Source of the DNA: Zingiber officinale
Lineage: Eukaryota > Streptophyta > Magnoliopsida > Zingiberales > Zingiberaceae
Assembly: GCF_018446385.1 (NCBI RefSeq)
Contig: NW_024589899.1
Coordinates: 186,001 to 250,000, forward strand
DNA: 64,000 bases
Direction: 5' to 3'
Both the position numbers and the translations under genes were made by a program. Positions 2,541 through 48,439 of the stretch are shown one piece after another. Below the pieces are notes generated by a model, which did not search any database, was not told where the DNA came from, and worked only from the letters and a program-made list of their open reading frames with translations. The first letter of the stretch is position 1. Each line of letters begins with the position of its first letter.

Positions 2541-5500
2541 ATGGAGAGGGAGAACTCGGCGATCGACAGGGAGGAGCATGACGTGGACTTCCTCTTCGGC
2601 GGAAGCACCGACGGCGACAGCGATGCGGGGGGCGGGTCGGACAATGGAGAAGAGGAGGAGGGCGTGGAGCGGTCAGGTAGCATATTCTCTCAGCAGTGGC
2701 CAAAAAGCTATAGGTATCGTTATTAGACATATGCTTCTCTCTCTCGCTTTGTTTGTATCAGTGCTTTTCTTTTTTGAAAAAGGTACCTCCTTGGGAGTAT
2801 TGAACTGAAATTATTTGTTTCTACTGTCCCATTGATCTGTGTAACTGGCTAAGAAGGTAAGCAAGAACGCGGACGCTTTTCGATCTTTCTTTTATGATTC
2901 AAAATGATGGAGAAGGGTCCCAGAAAACTTGATTTAATTATTATATGAAAGATCTTTTCTTTTTTTTTCTCCCACTACTTCGAGCAACAAGTCCTGTTCA
3001 CTGACGCACGATTTTGCAAATTAAAAACATGATTTTTGTTTCCCCAAGAGGACGTCATAATCTTTGGGATCCTCTGAAGCCTGAACTTGAGGCTATAATG
3101 TGCGGATGAATGGATTCAATTGATATAATCCATTGAGATGCTTTCCGTAGTTGTCGATGTAGCAATTTTCATTCCAGATGGTGAGCTTGTTGTATCGTTG
3201 GGGACTCACTATGGCAGGATCATCGATATATCAGCGTGGGTGGATTGCATCTCTTCAAATTTTTCATCACACTCCTTTGCAGTGTCAAGGCACCCCCTCA
3301 GTCAACATACCCTGATAGTTAAGACACTCTTAGATTAGGTGTTCCCTTTCAGTTAGTCACTGAACTCTCTAAGTCACCCTTTAGGTTAGTCGTCTCCTAT
3401 GCACAGTCGTCAACCTTTGTTAGTACACTCTTTCTGGTAGTCAACACACACTTCTGGGTAAGTATTTTTTAACACTTAGGCATTAAACTTTGTTGGTTTA
3501 CCCTCATTCAGGTAGATTGACTTGCCTATTTGGGATGGTTGTCACCAATGAATTTATCGTTGGTCGTCAAGCAACCCCTCGGATAATTGACACATGCTTT
3601 TCAAGTAAGGTCAGCTAAGGCCTCTTTCTTTAAGACAATATTGCCATTCCTGGGTGTTTATGATTTATCAGTAATCGTCCCCCAAGATATAACGATCTCT
3701 TCAAGATCTATTGGAGAGTAACGAAGAAAGAATTGAAGAGGAGATATTACAATTTGAGATTAAGTGATTTTAGTGAGAGATCTAGGGTCCTTATCTAATG
3801 ATGGAAAGACCTTTATATAGTGATAGTGATGGAAAGGTAGTCGAAACAAACAATGTGGATGAAATATTTTTATTAATGGGAGAAAAGACAGAATTATCTT
3901 CTCTTCTCTTTTCTCAACCAAAAGGGGGAGTTGATTTGTTTCATAGTGTTGTTCATCATTGTCATTATCTAACGTGCAGTCAACTATCATATCAGTGTTT
4001 ACTAACTGAGGAATTTTTTACCCTCAACAATTTTGATCAATAATGAAAATCTTAAATCAAGCCCATTGAGTTAATTAAAAACTTAATTTAATCAATTTAA
4101 TCTCCTCATATGACATCCCAAATATTGATCCTAAACTAATATATTCTAGCTTAATTTAGGTCCTCCAATTTCTCGCTTCTTCGATATTCCTTGACCTTGG
4201 CCCACAAACTAATATTCACGCATACGGGAGTTAACACTCATGTGTTTGCATATGTGGATTGTGCTCATACATGAGCGATGCACTTGATCAATCAAGCCAA
4301 ACTAAACCAATGAATTTCATGGTTTTCCTTCATCACTCGAACAATTTTGAACATTAATTTCTCATTCACAGCTTGATAGCCCGTTTATGTCTCTATTTGA
4401 TCACTTTATTGCGAAAATAAATTCCAATTTTCCAATACTTCCGTCTACATTTTTTGTCCATTTTTCTCTTTCTGGATGCTGGAATCATTTTCACTAATTT
4501 GTAGTCTATATAATTGTGTCAGACAACTTCTATTTGTTTTTCAAATATCTCATTTTGAGAACGGAAATTACTAGACATGACTCCTTATGAGCACACAACA
4601 GAGTGCACTACTTGGTGCTTTGTTTCCTCCTTAACTTGTTGATTCAAGGCTAATCTTTACGCATTGTCCTTTTTGTTAATGGTATGACAGATACCACCAG
4701 AACTAAATCTACCTAACTTCATTGATCAAGTTCTCCTATCTGCATATATATCAGAGGCTTATGACAGTTTTAAAAGGCTAAACTTTTACTAGTAAACAAC
4801 AATTTCAAAATAAAATAGTTTGTTATTTTTTGTCCTATTAGGTTGCCATATGATACAAATGCAACTTAAATGCTTGTGTTGGTCAGCAACCATCTTCAAA
4901 CCAGGGGGGTCTAATCTGTCTCCTAGTTTTTAGCAGTTGACCATATTTCTGTCATCGACACCTAAAATTTTTTAGGGAAAGCCATTGGCTTGAGGTTTAC
5001 AAACTATCAGTTAATACAATGATATAGCTTTTTGCCATACTTGAACTCATACTCTTAATGCCATTTTTTTTTTGTTAAATATTCCTTCGTACATTGTGGA
5101 TATTTTTTGACATTAATGGTTCTCTTGTTCTTTGTAGTTGAAACCTTTTGTCTTTTTTGACAGGGAAAGTGTTGATTCATACACAATTTCGGCATCACCA
5201 GCCTTCGGTTATCTTGGGCCTTTGCGTAGTCTTAGACTATCTAGCTCCCTTAGTCAAAGTGGACAAGATTCTGAATTGAAATTGCCTCTTCTGTCCAGTG
5301 GCATAAGTGAGAAGCAAGAATCACATGAAAGCATGAGGAAATCTCTTGATTTGGCATCAAATAAGTCAGTATCGTTTTCATTTTCTGGTGAAGGATATGC
5401 TCATCATGGATGTAGTGTAACTCAAACAGTCTTTAATGGTAAACTCATCTTCTCAACCAATAATACTTCTGTTAACCTTTCTCTTCTTTTTCTCTTGATA

Positions 5501-8500
5501 TGTGATCTCCATTAGATCTAATTCAACTGATGTAAATTACTCTATTTTTTCAGTTTGTGCAAAATATATTTAGACATATGTTTCCGTATTAGCCATCCTG
5601 AAAGATTCTTGTTTTTGCTGATTTTGTTCAGGAGTTAATGTATTGGCAGGAGTTGGTCTTCTTTCTACTCCATTTACTGTGAAAGAGGCAGGATGGGCCA
5701 GTTTGGTAATGCTAGTTGTATTTTCTGCGGTTTGTTGCTACACTGGCATTCTTATGAAGCATTGTTTTGAGAGCAAAGATGGCATATTTAGCTATCCAGA
5801 TATTGGTGAAGCTGCATTTGGAAGATTTGGACGCCTTTTTGTATCTGTGAGTTTTTAGCATTCAAGTTATGTTAATTAGCAAAAATAAAATAATGGTGTC
5901 TAAGTAAAGTGAAAATATTTTGGTTTAACATAATCAAGATGACCTAATGCTGATATCTGGATGATGCAGGTTGTTTTATATGCAGAACTATATGTAAGTT
6001 TCACTCAGTCAGAGGAAAGGAATTTGCTGTTCTGCATGATTTCATTGTTCTTTTTAGAACATTTACATGTTCTTCTTTTGATGATACAGGCATACTGTGT
6101 AGAATTTATTATTTTAGAAGGTGATAACCTTACAAATATCTTTCCTGGGACTACTTTGGATTGGGCAGGGATTCATGTTGATTCTATTCATTTGTTTGGG
6201 ATACTTACTGCTCTAATTGTCCTACCGACTGTCTGTTTACGAGACCTTAGAGTAATCTCTTATCTTTCAGGTGTGGCTTTGATTTTCTTCTTGCATTTTG
6301 AGACTTTTCTGGAAGAACTACATCATGATTTCTTGAGTCTTTTTACAGCTGGTGGAGTGGTGGCCACCTTGTTGATCTTTGTCTCTGTAATTACCGTGGG
6401 TTTTACTGATGGAATTGGTTTCCATCATTCTGGTAAAGCTGTGATTTGGGGTGGCCTTCCATTTGCTATTGGTGTGCATGGTTTTTGTTATTCTGGGCAC
6501 TCCGTGTTTCCAAATATTTACCAGTCAATGTCAGATCGAACAAAATTCACAAGAGCATTGTTAATAAGGTATGACATCTCTTTGTTTTTAATTCAGTTAT
6601 TTGGAAGTATTCTTCATGTCGTTTCCTGAAAAGAGTATTTCCTCAACCAACTCAAAACAGTTTTACTCTGGTTACATTGATTTATGGTTTGCTTGCTGCC
6701 ATTGGATATCTCATGTTTGGCGAAGGCACATTGTCCCAAATAACATTGAACTTACCAAAGAATTCATTTGCCTCAACAATTGCAATATGGACAACGGTAA
6801 TTCTCATATTTAAACTTTGGATTCTTGTATTATTTTAAATTCCTCTCTCACCATTCACCAGTATTGAAATTATATGACTGTTATCAGGTCATCAATCCAT
6901 TCACCAAATATCCTTTGAGAACTTATAATAGTTATTACTCTATTGGGGATTTTTTTAGTTTGTACTATTTGCTTTGACAGTCATTGTTGTATCCTTAGCT
7001 AGAAACAGGTATGCATTATTGCTAAATCCCATAGCTAGGTGTTTGGAGGAGCTGCTTCCACAAGAAACTGCTGATAAACTTTGGTGCTCAATGATGTTAA
7101 GAACAACACTCGTTATATCTACAGTGTGTGTAGCTTTTCTTCTGCCATTTTTTGGTACGTGCATTAGACATCATTGAAACATTGATGGCTCAAATTATGT
7201 ATATTTCTTATTACTAGTTGGTGTTCAGTCTCCATTCCTTTAGTTAGGGACTAAATTAAGTCGATACTGCACTGGTCTAACTCAGCTAGAAACCAATAAA
7301 GTGCATCCTCTGGTTGTTTATACACAGTCCATTTCTTTCATTTATCGGATAAAGGTGCTTCACTTTAGGACTTCCTTACATAACCAAACCCAAACAACAG
7401 CGTTAACAGAGAATGTCTTTGACTTCTCTGCTTTTTGTGGAGTTTTTATTATTATGTCAAATTGAATTACTTCAGTTCAATGTATAATTTTCTCCAACCT
7501 TGCCAGTCCTAGGTGCTGGCATGGTAAAGTCTGGTCAAATTAGGTTAAAACAAAAGTTTTTGAGTTGGTCCATTTCTCCTACTGTAGTCAAACTTTCTTT
7601 GCTCTTCTCTACTTCATTTCTATTATTGGATATTCCAGCAAGATTTGTTGTTTCGGAAAGGTCCTTGGATAATTGTGCTTGAATTCGTTAGTGGATGTAT
7701 GGATTGAAGCAATGTTATTTTAAGATGCCGGGAACTCCCAGGAGCCAAGGTCCTCTTATGGTATTTCCAGATTCGAGAATCTATACCATTAGTTCTTAAA
7801 TAATGGTGAAATATATTAAGAGATAAATATAATCAGTGAAACATTATCCTTAGTCCTTGGATGAGAGGAATGATCACAATATGATAACACTATTTAACTT
7901 ATATAATCTGGAATTCTGGAGTACATGTTCATTGCATAGATTGAGTGCTTTGTTTCATAGTTCTAATATGTTGATAATTTTCTATAACTTAATTGACTTT
8001 TGAACTTTTATTCTGGTACCATAGCAGGAGACGAAATATTTAAATGAAAACTTACTGCAGTGTGGAGCTCAATCAAGACATTTAGTTTCGTAGGCATGAA
8101 AACAAAGTAGATATATATGAGTTTCCTAATACGACAAGGGTTTTTAGTTTAGGTAGGTATCATTAACCGATAGAGTTTGTTATTACAAATCTATTAACCA
8201 ATAGAGTTTGCTATCACAAATCCAACTGAGGAACTTTACCTTACAAGAGCAGCATATGGCAGTAAATATCAGTATCAGGGAACAGTTACTCCATCCACCT
8301 CTTGAGAGAATTTAGTAAGCAGATTGCACTGAACATCTTTTCTCAAGAGAGAAATGAGAAGATGTTGTTCGGTTTGTGGGTATGGTACATTTGTAGGAGG
8401 CTAACAAGGTAAGAAGCTACGATTGAATATGGGTATATGACCATGATGTTATGCATGTAGAATGTGGCTAGCCATGGCATTTTTGCAGTTGGCAACTATA

Positions 8501-41300: not shown

Positions 41301-41991
41301 AAAGAAATATAAACAATCAACAAAAGTTGACTTACGTCGCCAAGAAGAACAGGGCGAGAGACTCTTTCTTCAACTTTTCTTCGTATTCATGATTCTCATA
41401 CGCGTAATCATCCTGAGAAACAAAAAGTGGGGACCTTTTTTAAGTACAGTAAAATCGCCCAAATTTTGCAAATTACTTGAGATCGTAAATTAACTTCACG
41501 ATACTCACCAAGTCAACAACTTTGAAGACGGACTTCTTGTACCTCGCATTGGCCTCATCCGCCAAAGTCTGCTCAAAGAAATCGACTTTTAGATCGAACT
41601 AATGCGATTTCAGTGATTGGGAGGTGAGAAAGGATCAAAAGGTCCAAAACCTAACCTTGGCGAACCTCTCGGCGGTTCCGGTCTGCGAGCCAAAGAACAA
41701 TGTCACCTTCTTTTTCCCCAAATCGACAGATTCCGCATCCCTCGCGATCTTCTTGGCCCGCTTAGGCGCTGGAGCCGGCGGCGCCACTACCCGGGCCGGC
41801 TCTTTGTCGCCTGATCTCTGCCAGAAAAGAAGGAACGCCGCGAGGCATCCCACTAGAACGGCCACCTCCAGAAACCTAGGGTTCTCGTACAACTTCGAAG
41901 CCCACTGGAGCAGCTCCGACGCATCGAGCTTAGCCTTCAGAATATCCGCCATGAGGTCGAGAGAGGAAACATCCACATCACCGAGCTGCAT
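38345..41991 (-). CDS. CPR: NADPH-cytochrome P450 reductase
   Basis: ER-anchored diflavin enzyme passing electrons from NADPH via FAD and FMN to microsomal P450s. Seventeen exons: 41991-41656, 41568-41509, 41412-41336, 41258-41117, 41011-40975, 40831-40762, 40659-40465, 40371-40279, 40133-39905, 39814-39731, 39655-39504, 39419-39323, 39229-39080, 38995-38918, 38836-38714, 38629-38516, 38425-38345; sum 2118 nt, 705 aa, normal for plants. All splice sites are GT-AG and the frame closes throughout. Residues about 45-65 form the membrane anchor. The FMN domain has [15 protein letters not shown] (about 98-112) and [10 protein letters not shown] (about 159). The FAD domain has [11 protein letters not shown] (about 482-492) and [12 protein letters not shown]. 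The NADPH domain has [14 protein letters not shown] (about 559-572) and [12 protein letters not shown], and the protein ends in the conserved DVW. ATG 41991 (MQLGDVD) is the first in-frame methionine. An upstream reading from TTG is not used. Confidence 0.96.
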
Positions 41992-42026
41992 CTTCTCCAA
42001 ATGATCAAAAAAACCCTAAATTATCC

Positions 42027-42811: not shown

Positions 42812-42819
42812 GATAGATC
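42812..42819. repeat. Left target-site duplication of hAT element
   Basis: GATAGATC directly precedes the left terminus and is repeated exactly after the right terminus at 48432-48439. Eight bp is the hAT target-duplication length. Confidence 0.93.
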
Positions 42820-43212
42820 TAGGGCTGGAATTTTTTATAAAATTCCCGACCCTTCCCGACTCCCAACCCGTTCCCGTCCCGAATTTTTCCCGACCCGAAT
42901 TTTTCCCGACCCGTATGGTCGGGATTTTTCCCGACCCGACCAAAATCGGGAAAAAGATCGGGTACACTAGCTCTACCCGACGGGCTTCCCGACCCGACCC
43001 GAATATATTAATAATAATTTTTAATTCAAGTTTTTAAAAAAAAATAATATAGAAAATTAGGTTTAAAAATTAAAAAATCTAAAAACTGATTCAACTAAAG
43101 TATGATTTTTAAAAACACAAAAAGAAAAATATAAAAATAAGTAAATAGTAAAGTAAGGGTTGTTACTTATGCATCTCAAATTCTCTCGTTCACTTCACGC
43201 CACGCCATTCAC

Positions 43213-43254
43213 GCCCTTCGCCCTTCGCCCTTCGCCCTTCGCCCTTCGCCCTTC
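43213..43254. repeat. (GCCCTTC)6 minisatellite inside hAT
   Basis: Six perfect 7-bp units, continued by imperfect relatives to about 43365. It lies between the left end of the hAT element and its transposase gene, perhaps in the leader or promoter. Confidence 0.85.
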
Positions 43255-43902
43255 ACCATTCGGCGTTCACCTTTCGCCGTTCAACCTCGCCCTCGCGGTT
43301 TCGCGGTTCGCCTTCGCCCTCGAGGTCTCGCCCTTCACCCTTTGCCCTTCGCCCTTCGTCGTTCGTCGATTTATTCCACTGGAACCCTAGCCCATACCCA
43401 CACCGCCACTGGAACCCTAGCCCACGCTGCTTCGTCTTTCGCTGACTTATTCTTGGTAACCTTTCTTCCTTTAAAATGAATCCAAGATATAGTGAATAGG
43501 GATGTAATTTCTAGTTGTTCATTGTGCTTATAGTTATCAGATTACCTGTGACTGTGGATTTGGGTCCTAGATCATGTTGAATTTTGTATGGTTATCAGGT
43601 TATGGTAGTTTATAGAAATATCCAGGTCAATTTTTTTTTTTGTTATTGTATGACTAGACCACACCCACTTCCACTTCCTGATGCTTCTGTTGCGAATTAG
43701 ATTGGAACAAAGTTGACGTACGTAGTTCATGGTGACAACGGTGCACGGTTTAATTCCTCGTCTGCTCCTCCTATGCATGCATATGCACTTGTCTAGCTAG
43801 CTACTTGTGGATTTATTAGATAAGAGTCATAGATCTAGTGTACTTTAATGTCCACGATCTTATTTTGTGGTTGATCTTATTGGCTAAAAACAGGTTACTA
43901 GC

Positions 43903-44100
43903 ATGAGTATTACTGTTGTGAGTCATAGAACCAGTCAGACTAGTGTTCAAGTTATAAAATTATGTTTGATGTTGTACAGTATAAAGACTAGTGTTCAAAC
44001 ATTAAAGTATACCCGTTCCCGTCCCGAATTTTTTACAGTTGTGAGTCATAGAACCAGTCAGACTAGTGTTCAAGTTACTAGCATGAGTATTACTGTAATA
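43903..44100. repeat. Local duplication upstream of transposase
   Basis: GTGAGTCATAGAACCAGTCA with flanking text at 43918-43955 recurs at 44040-44077, and the GCATGAGTATTACTG phrase occurs at 43900 and 44082. Between them, near 44010-44030, lies a copy of the subterminal phrase CCCGTTCCCGTCCCGAATTT also found at 42870-42895. Confidence 0.8.
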
Positions 44101-44317
44101 ACTTATGTTTGATGTTGTAATCTCTATTTTTCTTAACTGTGCAGCTAGGTGACCATACATTCTCTTTTTACTTTTTAGTAATATACTGTAATCTCTATTT
44201 TTCTTAAATCTTGCTCACCTAACATTCTCTTTTTAGTAATATTTGAATGTTTCTAACTGTGCAGCTATCTGATTCTGAACGATATTCATATTATTGTAGT
44301 CATTCATAAATTCATTC

Positions 44318-46512
44318 ATGGATGCATCTAGCGGAAGTGGTAGCTCTCCAGCCTCTCCTTCCATCACTCAACCTCACACAGTATCTCCATCCAAAACATC
44401 AATCATTCATGAGGAAATAGTAGATATTGGAGGCAAAAGGAAAAAAGTAGCGGATGTATGGTCACACGCCAAGAAAATTATAAGGAGAAATGACAAAAAT
44501 GAGGTCACTGCTGTTGTTGCTATTTGCAATTATTGCAAAACTGAAGTTCCTGCCCATAGCAAAACACATGGGAATAATGGCATTGACGGGCATGTGAAGA
44601 AATGCAAAAAGAATCCTCATAATGCGGTGAAGTCTTCTCAACCAATCTTAACACAGTCGTCCATGAATAATGCTTTGACACCCCACATCTTTTGCCAAAA
44701 AAAGCTTGAAGATAAAGTTGTTGCATTTGTTGTTAAAGATGAGATGCCATTTAGGGTAGTGGAAGGGGCAGGGTTTGTAGAGATGATGAAAGAAGCTCAA
44801 CCTCGATTCAAGATTCCCAACAGAAAGAAAATTGCATCTCTTGTATGGGATTTATATGCACTGGAGATGGCTAAGATAAAGAGTGTCATTGGTGATCAAA
44901 GGGTAAGTATCACGACCGATACTTGGACCTCAATTCAGAATATCAATTACATGGTAATCACAGCTCATTTCTTGGACAATGATTGGAAGTTGCATAAGCG
45001 AATAATAAATTTCACCAAGATTACCTCTCACAAAGGAGATGACATTGGCAAAGTTTTAGAAACATGCTTGAGCGATTGGGGGATAGATAAAGTTTTCACT
45101 ATCACAGTTGATAATGCTAGCACGAATGATAAAGCGGTGGAGTACATGGGAAAGAGGCTAAAGGAAATGGGCACTCTATTATTTGATGGTAAATACTTGC
45201 ATTTGAGATGTTGTTGCCATATTATAAATTTAATTGTCAAGAGTGGGTTGAAGTTTCTTAATGAGTCAGTTGAGTCCATTAGAAACTGTGTGAAATATAT
45301 TCACTCTTCTGGGGCACGGTTGGACCAATTTAGAGAGTGTGCTATCCTATTGAAGATGGATAAAATGTCAACCGTTCCAATGGATGTGCCTACGAGATGG
45401 AATTCCACCTATACAATGCTTTTTGTTGCATACAAGTTTAAAAAAGTGTTTGGTAGGATGGCAGAGAATGTTCAATTTGTTGAATACTTTGAAGAGGTAG
45501 ATGGTTCGGAGAAGAAAAAGAGAGTGGGGCCTCCTATGGAAAAAGATTGGGAGAAGGCACAAGTCTTTGTGAATTTTCTCAAGAGGTTTCATGATACTAC
45601 ATTACAACTTAGTGCTACCAAGAAAACTACATCACCCTTGATTTGGGAGGAAATAGTTGCAATGAGGATGATCATTGATGAGACAATACTTGACACTACT
45701 GATCCTTCATTACAAGAAGTTGCTAAGAGAATGGAGAGTAAGTTCAATAAGTATTGGGGTAATCTTGAGAAGGTGAACAAGCTTGTTTTCCTAGGTCACA
45801 TTCTAGATCCTCGTTATAAACTTCAAATGATTGGGATCCACTTGGGAGATATGAAATTGGATGCTAGTAAAATACAATCCTTTGTTGACGGTTTAAAGAA
45901 TTGTCTAATGGAGTTGTATCATGCATATAAAGGGAATTCACCTTTGGATCATATTAATGGGATTGATGATGGCGATGTAGATAAAGATTTGATGGAAATG
46001 TATAAGAATGATCCCATTAAACTAAACTATCATCTGAAAATGGCTCAACTAAGAAAAGCTCAAAAGCAAGAAGAAATAACCAATGAGGTGGACAAGTACT
46101 TTTCGGATCCTTTTGTGAAATGGAGCTCAAGCTTCGATATTTTGGAATGGTGGAAAGGAAATACAACGACATTTCCAGTCTTGTCTAAGATTGCCAAGGA
46201 TATTTTTTCAATCCCTTCATCTACTGTTGCTAGTGAGAATGCTTTTAGCCTTGGGAGGAGGGTTGTAGATCCATTTAGGGCATCATTGCATCCCAAAATG
46301 GTGGAGGCACTAGTGTGCACTAGTGACTGGCTTAGAGGTGAAGAAATTAACTTATACAAGGAGCCGACAGAAGATGAATTCAACTTTTATAAGGATTGTG
46401 AAGAAGTGATCACAAGTAAGTCAATATTTAACTTGTTTATCTTGGTATAGACTATAGAATATAGATTATGCTTATATGATATTTGTTGTTTGTAGGTACC
46501 GTCAATGCTTAA
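44318..46512 (+). CDS. hAT transposase, BED zinc finger type
   Basis: An uninterrupted frame of 710 codons runs 44318-46450. A splice donor (GTAAGT at 46416) and an acceptor at 46495 allow a slightly shorter product, exons 44318-46415 and 46496-46512, about 704 aa ending EEVITSTVNA; this splice is inference. The N-terminal BED finger lies at about residues 45-105 (VADVWSHAKK, CNYC, then HVKKC). The RNase-H-like catalytic core follows: TTDTWTSIQ holds the first aspartate and TVDNASTND the second, with TRWNSTYTML between core blocks. The C-terminal hATC dimerisation domain (FDILEWWKGN, FPVLSKIAKDIFSIPSST, VASENAFSLG, LVCTSDWLRG) ends near 690. This is the RICESLEEPER/DAYSLEEPER-like branch, but the terminal repeats and 8-bp duplications mark it as a transposon rather than a domesticated gene. 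No disabling change is visible, so it may be active. Confidence 0.93.
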
Positions 46513-46687
46513 TTGTGGATGCTCCTGCTTACTAGACATCTACTTAGTTATCCGTTGATATTTTCATAATCAAGTTACTAGTCATTTATGAACATTTGTA
46601 TCTTTTTATTTCTGACTGTTGCAGTGTTGTTATAAAACTTATGTTGTTTGCTTGTAGTTATTTTGAAGGTTTATCTATTTGTTATAA

Positions 46688-47064
46688 CACTTTTCTCTCC
46701 TCAAATGAGTGATGCCCGCATATCCTGGGCTAAAAACAGTATACTCACAACTGTGGTTGATGACTTCTTCGACATTGGAGGATCTAGAGAGGAGCTTCAC
46801 GATCTTATTTTGTTGGTTGAGAAGTTTGTCTATTTGTGCCATTTTCTATTATTTGATCTTGTATTATATTGTTCTCTAAATGGTTCACAAGATAAATTTC
46901 CTTTTGCTATTGATAATAATTAATAGGTCTGTGGGATGCAAACTGGAAAAAGGAGACACATTCTGAACAAGTTAAGATCATTTTTTTTGCTTTGTTCGAT
47001 GCTATCAATGAACTTGGGACCCAGGCATCAACATTGGTAGATAAGTCCATTCAATTTGTAGATA
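46688..47064 (+). pseudogene. Captured fragment of a kaurene synthase-like terpene synthase
   Basis: Two exon-like stretches, 46688-46824 and 46932-47064, match class I diterpene synthases of the ent-kaurene synthase type, which make ent-kaurene for gibberellins. The first reads [20 protein letters not shown] then [19 protein letters not shown], including the Mg2+-binding DDFFD (DDxxD) motif. The second reads WDANWKKETHSEQVKIIFFA then INELGTQASTL. The piece between them keeps intron-like sequence, so capture was at DNA level. Only about 90 of some 800 residues are present, and the splice junction no longer joins cleanly. It lies inside the hAT element in transposase orientation. Assignment rests on remembered family sequence; another terpene synthase of the same clade is possible. 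Confidence 0.8.
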
Positions 47065-47978
47065 AGTCTTCATCCTGTGTTGGACAAGACTACATATCAC
47101 CTTATAAACAAAGAGACGCTGGCCATCGTGAAAAAGGTGAGCCTTGTGCTGTATTTTCTATAAATAGAGAGCCAAGAAGATTGCCATATAATTGTTGGCC
47201 TCCTGCAGGAAGCAATACTGGTGAATGCAAGTCGAGGACCAGTTATCGACGAAGCTGCTTTGGTTGAACATCTGAAGGCAAATCCTATGTTCAGTGTCGG
47301 TCTCAATGTTTTTGAGGTAATTATGCGAGGATCAGTTCAGCACTTATGATTGGCGACATTGTCGAGTAAATTGAAAATATGTTTTGCTCTTCTGCACAGG
47401 ATGAGCCAAAGATGAAACCTGGTCTTGCTGAACAGAAAAATGCAATTGTTGTGCCACATATTGCCTCTGCATCCAAGGTGACAAACAACACACAAATTGA
47501 AGCTTAATTCGGCCAACTTTGAGTAACTTAACTTATTTTGTTTCCTTAAAATTCTTGGTATAGTCAATAGTGGACGTGTGAAGGACTGACCACTCTTGCT
47601 GCCTTGAATGTTCTTGTAAGTTGACTATGTCACTTGCTTGTTTATTTATGACAAGGAAATTAGAAATTATATATAATCCTTATTAGAGACTCCTGTAGGA
47701 AAATTCTCCTTGATCCTGCTATATTATATTTATTGCATGCAGGGAAAGATTAAAGGGTATCCAGTTTCCAGTTTGGGGGGATCCAAATCGTGTTGATAAA
47801 TTCTTGGATGAGAAATCTCTAGTTCCTGCAGCATGTCCAAGCATTGTTAATGTCAAATAGCTTGGTATTATTCCGACTTTTATCTTAATTAATTTATTTT
47901 CTACTCTCTTCTTGTGGAACACTTTCATTAATTTGGCAATTAATTTGTTTTGCAGGCCCGCCAGTTTCAAAACCGTGA
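47065..47978 (+). pseudogene. HPR1: Captured 3' part of hydroxypyruvate reductase (HPR1)
   Basis: Six exon pieces keep their GT-AG borders: 47065-47136 (SLHPVLDKTTYHLINKETLA), 47209-47316 (EAILVNASRGPVIDEAALVE through GLNVFE), 47400-47477 (DEPKMKPGLAEQKNAIVVPH), 47571-47615 (WTCEGLTTLAALNVL), 47743-47864 (GKIKGYP and a C-terminal lobe), 47956-47978 (PPVSKP). HPR1 is the peroxisomal NADH-dependent hydroxypyruvate reductase of photorespiration (D-2-hydroxyacid dehydrogenase family). The piece covers the end of the NAD domain and the C-terminus. In exon 47743-47864 a 7-bp duplication (CCAGTTT) shifts the frame, and a TAG follows VNVK, so it cannot make the normal end. The final tripeptide reads SKP where HPR1 has the peroxisomal signal SKL. 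Intact introns show capture from genomic DNA. The original 3' UTR may continue to about 48250. Confidence 0.9.
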
Positions 47979-48431
47979 TGCGATACAAGATAAACACCGC
48001 AGAAGAAAGGCTTTGTTATTATTTAGACACAAAGGGATAAATATCTAGGCACGATGTATATGAATATGATTGCCACATAGTTCTTATTATTTACCGCAGA
48101 GAGAAGGTAAAAAAGGGAAGTTGAATGTTGTATCGCTACGCATTCTCCACAGTCACTGTTCGATATCTGAAGATGTTTATTTCTAGTAGATTTATAGTAT
48201 TTCTAGTAGTTTGATAATATCTCAGTACTAATATAGACTCAAAATGCTGCTGTATAATAAAAATATTTAAACATTCGGGATATCATTTCCCTACCCGACG
48301 GGATCCCGAACATTCGGGTCCCGACACTTGTCGGGTACGGGATCGGGAGAAAAATTGATTCCCAATTTTTTATCGGGACGGGATTTGGGTAAGATGATTA
48401 CGGGACGGGTCCCTACCCGATTCCACCCCTA

Positions 48432-48439
48432 GATAGATC
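48432..48439. repeat. Right target-site duplication of hAT element
   Basis: Second copy of GATAGATC, immediately after the terminal CCCCTA. Confidence 0.93.

Follow-up and report, generated by a model that had tools for sequence, protein, structure and literature searches.

A hAT transposon family of ginger with exchangeable host DNA downstream of its transposase

Gene capture by DNA transposons has mostly been described in elements that lack a transposase, and the capture step itself is rarely seen. A 64,000-nucleotide stretch of the ginger (Zingiber officinale) genome, here termed the window, raises the question of how a transposon that looks intact comes to hold pieces of unrelated host genes, and whether these pieces move with it. 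The original prediction, made from the letters of the window, read positions 42820-48431 as a possibly self-mobile hAT element with fragments of a kaurene synthase-like gene and of HPR1. Here, we compare this element with its own genome (3.09 Gb, 211 contigs). Coordinates without a contig name are positions in the window, whose contig we name C118. The comparison shows that the window element belongs to a multi-copy hAT family with differing host DNA, mostly gene fragments, and this family-wide exchange of cargo is a more interesting result than the window copy alone. Members of the family share a transposase and ends and differ in the host DNA of a slot downstream of the transposase, which is probably swapped by template-switching gap repair after excision.

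Anatomy of the window element

By its ends, target duplications and transposase, 42820-48431 is one hAT element. It is laid out as follows.

42812-42819: left target-site duplication, 8 bp, GATAGATC, identical to 48432-48439
42820-42831: 5' terminal inverted repeat (TIR), TAGGGCTGGAAT, 11/12 bp match to the 3' end
42832-43020: 5' subterminal region rich in CCCGA/TCGGG, from motif counts
43662-43855: third host fragment, 194 bp, 5' of the transposase, 95-96% identical to one C16 and one C15 locus
43891-44060: stretch with 23-bp subterminal and 45-bp repeats that duplicate nearby element sequence
44318-46450, plus strand: hAT transposase open reading frame (ORF), 710 codons, with D-D-E motifs and a probable intron at 46416-46495, from the ORF listing and domain searches
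46686-47036, plus strand: terpene-synthase (kaurene-synthase-like) fragment 1, 92.6% identical over 351 bp to C8:89895788-89896126
47037-47041: filler GTAGA, 5 bp, at a capture junction, from the junction alignment
47042-48093, plus strand: HPR1-like (2-hydroxyacid dehydrogenase) fragment, 91.9% identical over 1052 bp, introns included, to C6:96893781-96894806
48094-48173, plus strand: terpene-synthase fragment 2, from the same donor gene, 821 bp further along
48175-48431: hAT 3' subterminal region and 3' TIR, common to copies with other cargo
48432-48439: right target-site duplication, 8 bp, GATAGATC, identical to the left copy

The 8-bp duplication, the short TIRs and a transposase with a C-terminal dimerisation domain and D-D-E motifs place the element in the hAT superfamily, and an open transposase frame of 710 codons between intact ends gives the window copy the structure of an autonomous element. 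The 3' TIR, TAGGGGTGGAAT, pairs with TAGGGCTGGAAT at 11 of 12 positions; the originally predicted 12-bp ends do pair, with one mismatch, and the perfect target duplications were confirmed, GATAGATC being identical at both flanks. CCCGA and TCGGG occur 12 and 3 times within the element's first 201 bp and not at all in the transposase gene. Elsewhere in the hAT 5' region, degenerate CGCCCTT-type tandem repeats (43195-43365) align between copies with many indels.

The transposase frame is uninterrupted over 44318-46450, as predicted. Its product matches Dimer_Tnp_hAT (PF05699, 1.3e-29) and hAT-like RNase-H (PF14372, 8.8e-16) in Pfam as well as Hermes transposase structures (1.1e-17), and it retains the zinc-finger, D, D and E motifs under the motif definitions that we assumed. 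Judged by what we take to be the splice consensus, the final ~11 codons probably read into the intron at 46416-46495 (GTAAGT...TTTGTAG).

Local alignment shows hAT sequence running to 46683 and resuming at 48175. A genome search with 46600-48100 as query returned 42 matches and bore out the claim of captured pieces downstream of the transposase and on its strand, with host genes matched at 92.6% and 91.9%. Both predicted captures are real, with revised extents: the kaurene synthase-like piece placed at 46688-47064 now occupies 46686-47036, and the HPR1 piece placed at 47065-47978 now occupies 47042-48093. Domain searches found Terpene_synth_C in the former and 2-Hacid_dh_C (4.8e-08) in the latter, for which the glyoxylate/hydroxypyruvate reductase GhrB is the best NCBIfam model; these searches back a terpene synthase and a 2-hydroxyacid dehydrogenase, and the subtype names 'kaurene synthase' and 'HPR1' are our presumption. 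Both donors possess exons beyond the captured parts. Fragment 2 of the terpene synthase aligns over 48087-48173 at 92.0%, with 48094-48173 as its assigned extent, and because two pieces of one terpene-synthase gene flank the HPR1-like piece, the latter is nested in the terpene-synthase capture. The predicted fusion of the two genes holds for DNA and not for protein, since no listed ORF covers both the terpene-synthase and the HPR1-like piece; a 91-codon frame (46992-47267) spans their junction. Along C7 (101.7-102.3 Mb) and C8 (89.5-89.9 Mb), several terpene-synthase-like matches each, 76-94% identical to the captured pieces, suggest tandem gene clusters.

The fragment at 43662-43855 has matches within the element family only in the window and C18 copies, and 43658-44060 is absent from the C16 copy. 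At the C16 locus that this fragment resembles (2.2 kb, six-frame ORFs of at least 60 codons), no recognisable gene was found. Along with this fragment, the second terpene-synthase piece, the layered capture and the different family cargos in the same slot extend the original prediction.

C18 and C16 each have a further copy in which the whole cargo is accompanied by transposase sequence and ends. On C2, a derivative of 1847 bp retains the ends together with terpene-synthase fragment 2 and most of the HPR1-like piece, whose start is missing along with the transposase and terpene-synthase fragment 1. Target duplications are GATAGATC in the window, TCTAACAC on C16 and GTTTAACG on C2, and with separate 8-bp duplications at three of the four cargo loci, the cargo therefore moves with the element. 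The original description of a single hAT with internal captures thus stands: the junctions examined show no insertion borders belonging to the cargo, and cargo and element occur together at three further loci. Across the family, perfect and mutually different 8-bp duplications flank 11 of the 12 elements covered at both ends (the window, C16 and C2 copies, L011, L012, L013, L016, L017, L021, L023 and L028, with C18 as the failing copy). L019, where four flanking bases are covered and agree, and L031, with its 5' end outside the stretch examined, lie beyond this count of elements with both ends. On C12, a homologous locus lacks the element throughout the 4656 bp covered and has a single target copy that differs at 2 of 8 bases; its identity is 97% over 2.16 kb of left flank and drops to about 83-84% near the insertion site. 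Compared with C12:115488261-115490124, the window contig resembles an alternative haplotype of C12. In the C18 carrier (L002, L022, L040), 38 of 64 private sites in 44222-46858 are C>T or G>A, a pattern as expected of a copy that would be methylated, decaying or recombined.

Different cargos in one slot

In the genome-wide transposase search, 40 of 300 first-look candidates were scored, so that all copy counts are lower bounds. Transposase identity among the 40 scored copies, the window copy itself excepted, is 92-99%. We then compared 30 loci (L009-L038) in detail. Downstream of the transposase, these loci first share a stretch of sequence and then diverge into groups without homology to one another, although the groups have their transposases in common and, where covered, both ends as well. 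The slot lies between the transposase gene and the 3' end.

Apart from the terpene-synthase and HPR1-like group of the window, an isoleucyl-tRNA synthetase (IleRS) group comprises at least 3 copies (donors on C6/C5, 98%; ileS, 9.4e-16). An alpha/beta-hydrolase group has at least 6 (donors on C7, 91%, and C8, 87%), with Hydrolase_4 found in the donor at 1.9e-14; its label 'monoacylglycerol lipase-like' (MAGL) is our assumption, and the searches back Hydrolase_4. At least 6 further copies, one of them interrupted by ~9 kb, form a sterol-methyltransferase (SMT) group with donors on C17 (93%) and C18 (92%), named after Sterol_MT_C in the donor (2.8e-10), the captured pieces themselves having no informative match in domain and profile searches. 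The cyclin-like group (at least 7 copies; donors on C15/C16, 92%) and the RRM-like group (at least 5, two partial; donors on C3/C4, 79-80%) are named from weak cargo matches, with E values of 0.0084 for cyclin (0.054 in a PDB search) and 0.018 for RRM, and the RRM donor piece has no Pfam match. L018 carries a terpene-synthase piece alone (1.37 kb, 94.2% to the donor). No gene was assigned to the cargos of L032, L037 and L038; the 1.2-kb cassette of L038 has 12 near-complete matches and 84% matches at C11:84718288 and C12:91375798. At least 5 copies hold DNA resembling a long terminal repeat (LTR). We rejected this cargo (L019/L023/L027) as a gene capture, since its ~480-bp piece matches genome-wide repeats, several of them paired ~5 kb apart; it may be a capture or a solo-LTR insertion.

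In the transposase tree, the CYC, IleRS and SMT1 groups form supported clades, and KSHPR1, RRM and MAGL form clades with weak support. In the best tree, the LTR copies do not all group together, but an approximately unbiased (AU) test did not reject a single clade (p 0.094). An open transposase, taken as an ORF of at least 700 codons, is present at 6 of the 30 loci, the other 24 being broken by that criterion. The six open copies (the window, two cyclin, one IleRS, one SMT and L038) represent five cargo groups, and all six have D-D-E. Their pairwise ratios of non-synonymous to synonymous change (dN/dS) are 0.11-0.21 in 14 of 15 pairs, including all five comparisons with the window ORF; the closest pair gives 0.31, from 4 synonymous and 5 other changes. 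Transposase function has apparently been retained in several cargo lineages until recently.

Several groups also hold parts of one terpene-synthase donor, located here on the sense strand of C8:89892001-89902000. L018 covers 4406-5746, the IleRS copy L012 covers 5533-5746, and the hydrolase copy L016 covers 4505-4618 and 7396-7521. The window group has 5875-6213 and 7035-7121, and the cyclin group 7265-7547 at most. L018 and L012 have exactly the same 3' junction to hAT. Because the pieces are collinear and lie in one slot and one orientation, and because the L012/L018 junction is identical, one ancestral terpene-synthase capture is favoured, though not secure, for all groups bearing such pieces. 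In the simplest history, several cargo groups would descend from an old terpene-synthase capture that was later overwritten by other genes.

Capture, exchange and rival explanations

Several features bear on how cargo enters the slot. Since the captured pieces include introns, DNA was the source of the captures. The window copy lacks native hAT sequence, namely 328-403 of the L019 tail (present in L012 and L018) and 878-971 (present in L031), so that the cargo arrived by replacement rather than plain insertion; in a control, cargo-free hAT probes gave only one match, of 28 bp at 89%, to 12 donor stretches. Finally, 6 of the 15 junctions inspected, two of which are the same junction in two copies, are blunt and 9 have 1-46 bp of unassigned sequence. 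The L035 junction carries a 12-bp repeat of adjacent sequence.

Cores and cargos appear to have recombined. Between the window and C18 copies, the outer blocks differ at 5/831, 0/403, 3/1052, 0/80 and 0/258 sites, and the transposase at 47/2123; there, the window and C16 copies differ at 24/2133. Among these three carriers, the segment 44262-46858 stands apart (chi-square 100.3, 182 informative sites; 500 shuffles reached at most 22.0). In L019, a 5' part of the hydrolase type is combined with a 3' part of the LTR type. From these patterns, the window, C18 and C16 carriers are read as mosaics. The claim of recombination rests on segment scans, not on the tree, because several cargo groups are weakly supported or split as clades.

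We infer repeated template-switching gap repair after excision as the best mechanism. Excision would leave a chromosomal gap that is repaired by copying. The copying strand would leave the element for an unrelated gene and later return to it, such that intron-containing gene DNA replaces element sequence and the junctions end up blunt or with filler. With its ends intact, the new version could transpose anew, either through its own transposase, where that is intact, or in trans through that of a sister, and copying between sister elements would reshuffle transposase cores and cargos.

Several observations weigh against this account. The junctions alone lack the power to separate gap repair from fork-based template switching. 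In L035, the cyclin-group piece is 94% identical over 124 bp to another terpene-synthase paralog, whereas its identity to the main donor is 79% over 300 bp, and the SMT, RRM and LTR groups yielded no terpene-synthase match; layering therefore concerns only part of the family. The C18 carrier has intact ends and no matching target duplication, both other full-size carriers of the terpene-synthase and HPR1-like cargo (C16 and C18) have a broken transposase frame, and with 24 of 30 transposases broken, most carriers may have moved in trans. Captures made by stalling of replication forks and template switching, and not by repair after excision, are possible, if not what we favour: blunt and short-filler junctions fit both mechanisms, and a fork-switching model was put forward for multicopy animal Pack-TIRs (PMC8277862), yet the replaced native hAT sequence, nested cargos and mosaic sisters are explained simply by gap repair, even if they would be compatible with fork switching as well. 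The idea that the terpene-synthase and HPR1-like pieces are separate mobile insertions or an assembly error, which draws on the placement of the window on a contig of 299 kb, is largely refuted and hardly credible. These junctions are found again on C16 and C18, with the 3' part also on C2, and no terminal repeats or duplications marking insertion borders of the cargo's own were found at the junctions examined; a separate insertion of the captured segment was rejected on these grounds.

Every one of the seven gene donors that could be identified is in sense orientation relative to the transposase (terpene synthase, HPR1-like, IleRS, hydrolase, sterol methyltransferase, RRM-like and cyclin-like; two-sided sign test 0.016), in a small sample (n=7) that covers neither the 5' fragment nor the cargos of L032, L037 and L038 and in which the RRM-like and cyclin-like orientations rest on weak family matches. 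A self-mobile cargo-swapping platform, in which a transposase core under purifying selection recombines with a slot that takes sense-only host pieces, is a rather doubtful extension of these data. If it were true, sense orientation would be a constraint, as cargo in the transposase 3' untranslated region would have to splice or terminate properly, or else the element would have to avoid antisense or hairpin RNA leading to its own silencing; cargo turnover would then be part of the family's escape from silencing. As a structure, with open frame and intact ends, the 'possibly self-mobile' element of the original prediction is well supported, a standing that does not extend to its self-movement. 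It is less likely than not, though by no means remote, that the window element is not autonomous in practice, its ORF being silent and its copies moved in trans much like Pack-type elements, as the 6 of 30 open transposases and the two broken full-size sister carriers would suggest; the window ORF nonetheless retains its catalytic motifs and the low dN/dS given above. It is improbable that the cargo acts on its donors through chimeric or small RNAs from the sense pieces that down-regulate terpene-synthase and HPR1 genes. In favour of such an action, the cargo shares the strand of the transposase, is found at four loci and matches its donors at ~92% over 351 and 1052 bp; against it, antisense orientation occurs in none of the seven identified donors, and captured plant fragments are mostly described, in the part of PMC2528002 available, as apparently non-functional pseudogenes. 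Most likely, the cargo is a decaying passenger.

As to the insertion neighbourhood, an ORF at 41635-42000 on the minus strand resembles the N-terminus of NADPH-cytochrome P450 reductase, its GSQTGTAE motif being what we take as a sign of that enzyme; it has no Pfam match. The element may have inserted ~0.8 kb upstream of this putative reductase gene.

Precedents and significance

The closest precedent, likened by description and not by sequence, is the grapevine hAT family Hatvine-6, reported in 2008 to share a transposase and TIRs and to vary in the remainder, which matches genic or non-genic DNA (PMC2528002). The ginger family likewise has a common transposase coding sequence and TIRs and a variable remainder matching host DNA, which in Hatvine-6 is often exon/intron or non-genic sequence; the accessible part of that description contains no nested captures, per-cargo copy numbers, transposase selection, orientation bias or core/cargo recombination. 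Pack-TYPE elements, including Pack-hATs, also hold host gene fragments between hAT ends and spread them through transposition, and are described as non-autonomous and devoid of transposase in the available text of PMC8903248. The window element shares with them host coding fragments between TIRs and differs in its open transposase; among the four carriers, the window, C18 and C16 copies have a transposase and only the C2 derivative lacks it. Maize Ds2 and Ds-l4 resemble the ginger elements as hATs with intron-containing gene fragments copied from elsewhere. According to the accessible portion of PMC3260210, gene capture is rare in hATs, 2 Ds2 and 9 Ds-l4 elements were reported, and these are non-autonomous, whereas the ginger family has transposase-bearing copies with six kinds of gene cargo. 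KI-MULE and other ULP-bearing MULEs place a host-derived segment beside the transposase gene, downstream in grapevine; they belong to another superfamily and, as far as PMC2528002 describes them in that part, carry one recurrent gene type in either orientation, unlike the many different genes in one orientation found here. The term 'hAT' is absent from the main text of a 2026 review on plant gene capture (PMC13317346), and no report of nested or recombining cargo in a transposase-bearing hAT family appeared among the titles and abstract openings searched, a set that excludes most subscription papers.

Within one family and one genome, the ginger elements form a graded series, from a capture ~2% diverged from its donor to others at ~6-20%, and this series includes stacked captures and core/cargo recombination alongside open transposases. 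It makes the capture mechanism testable using the genomes of related plants. It also suggests that definitions barring transposase-bearing elements miss some gene shufflers. The element is a good example of mobile DNA that picks up, stacks and spreads gene fragments.

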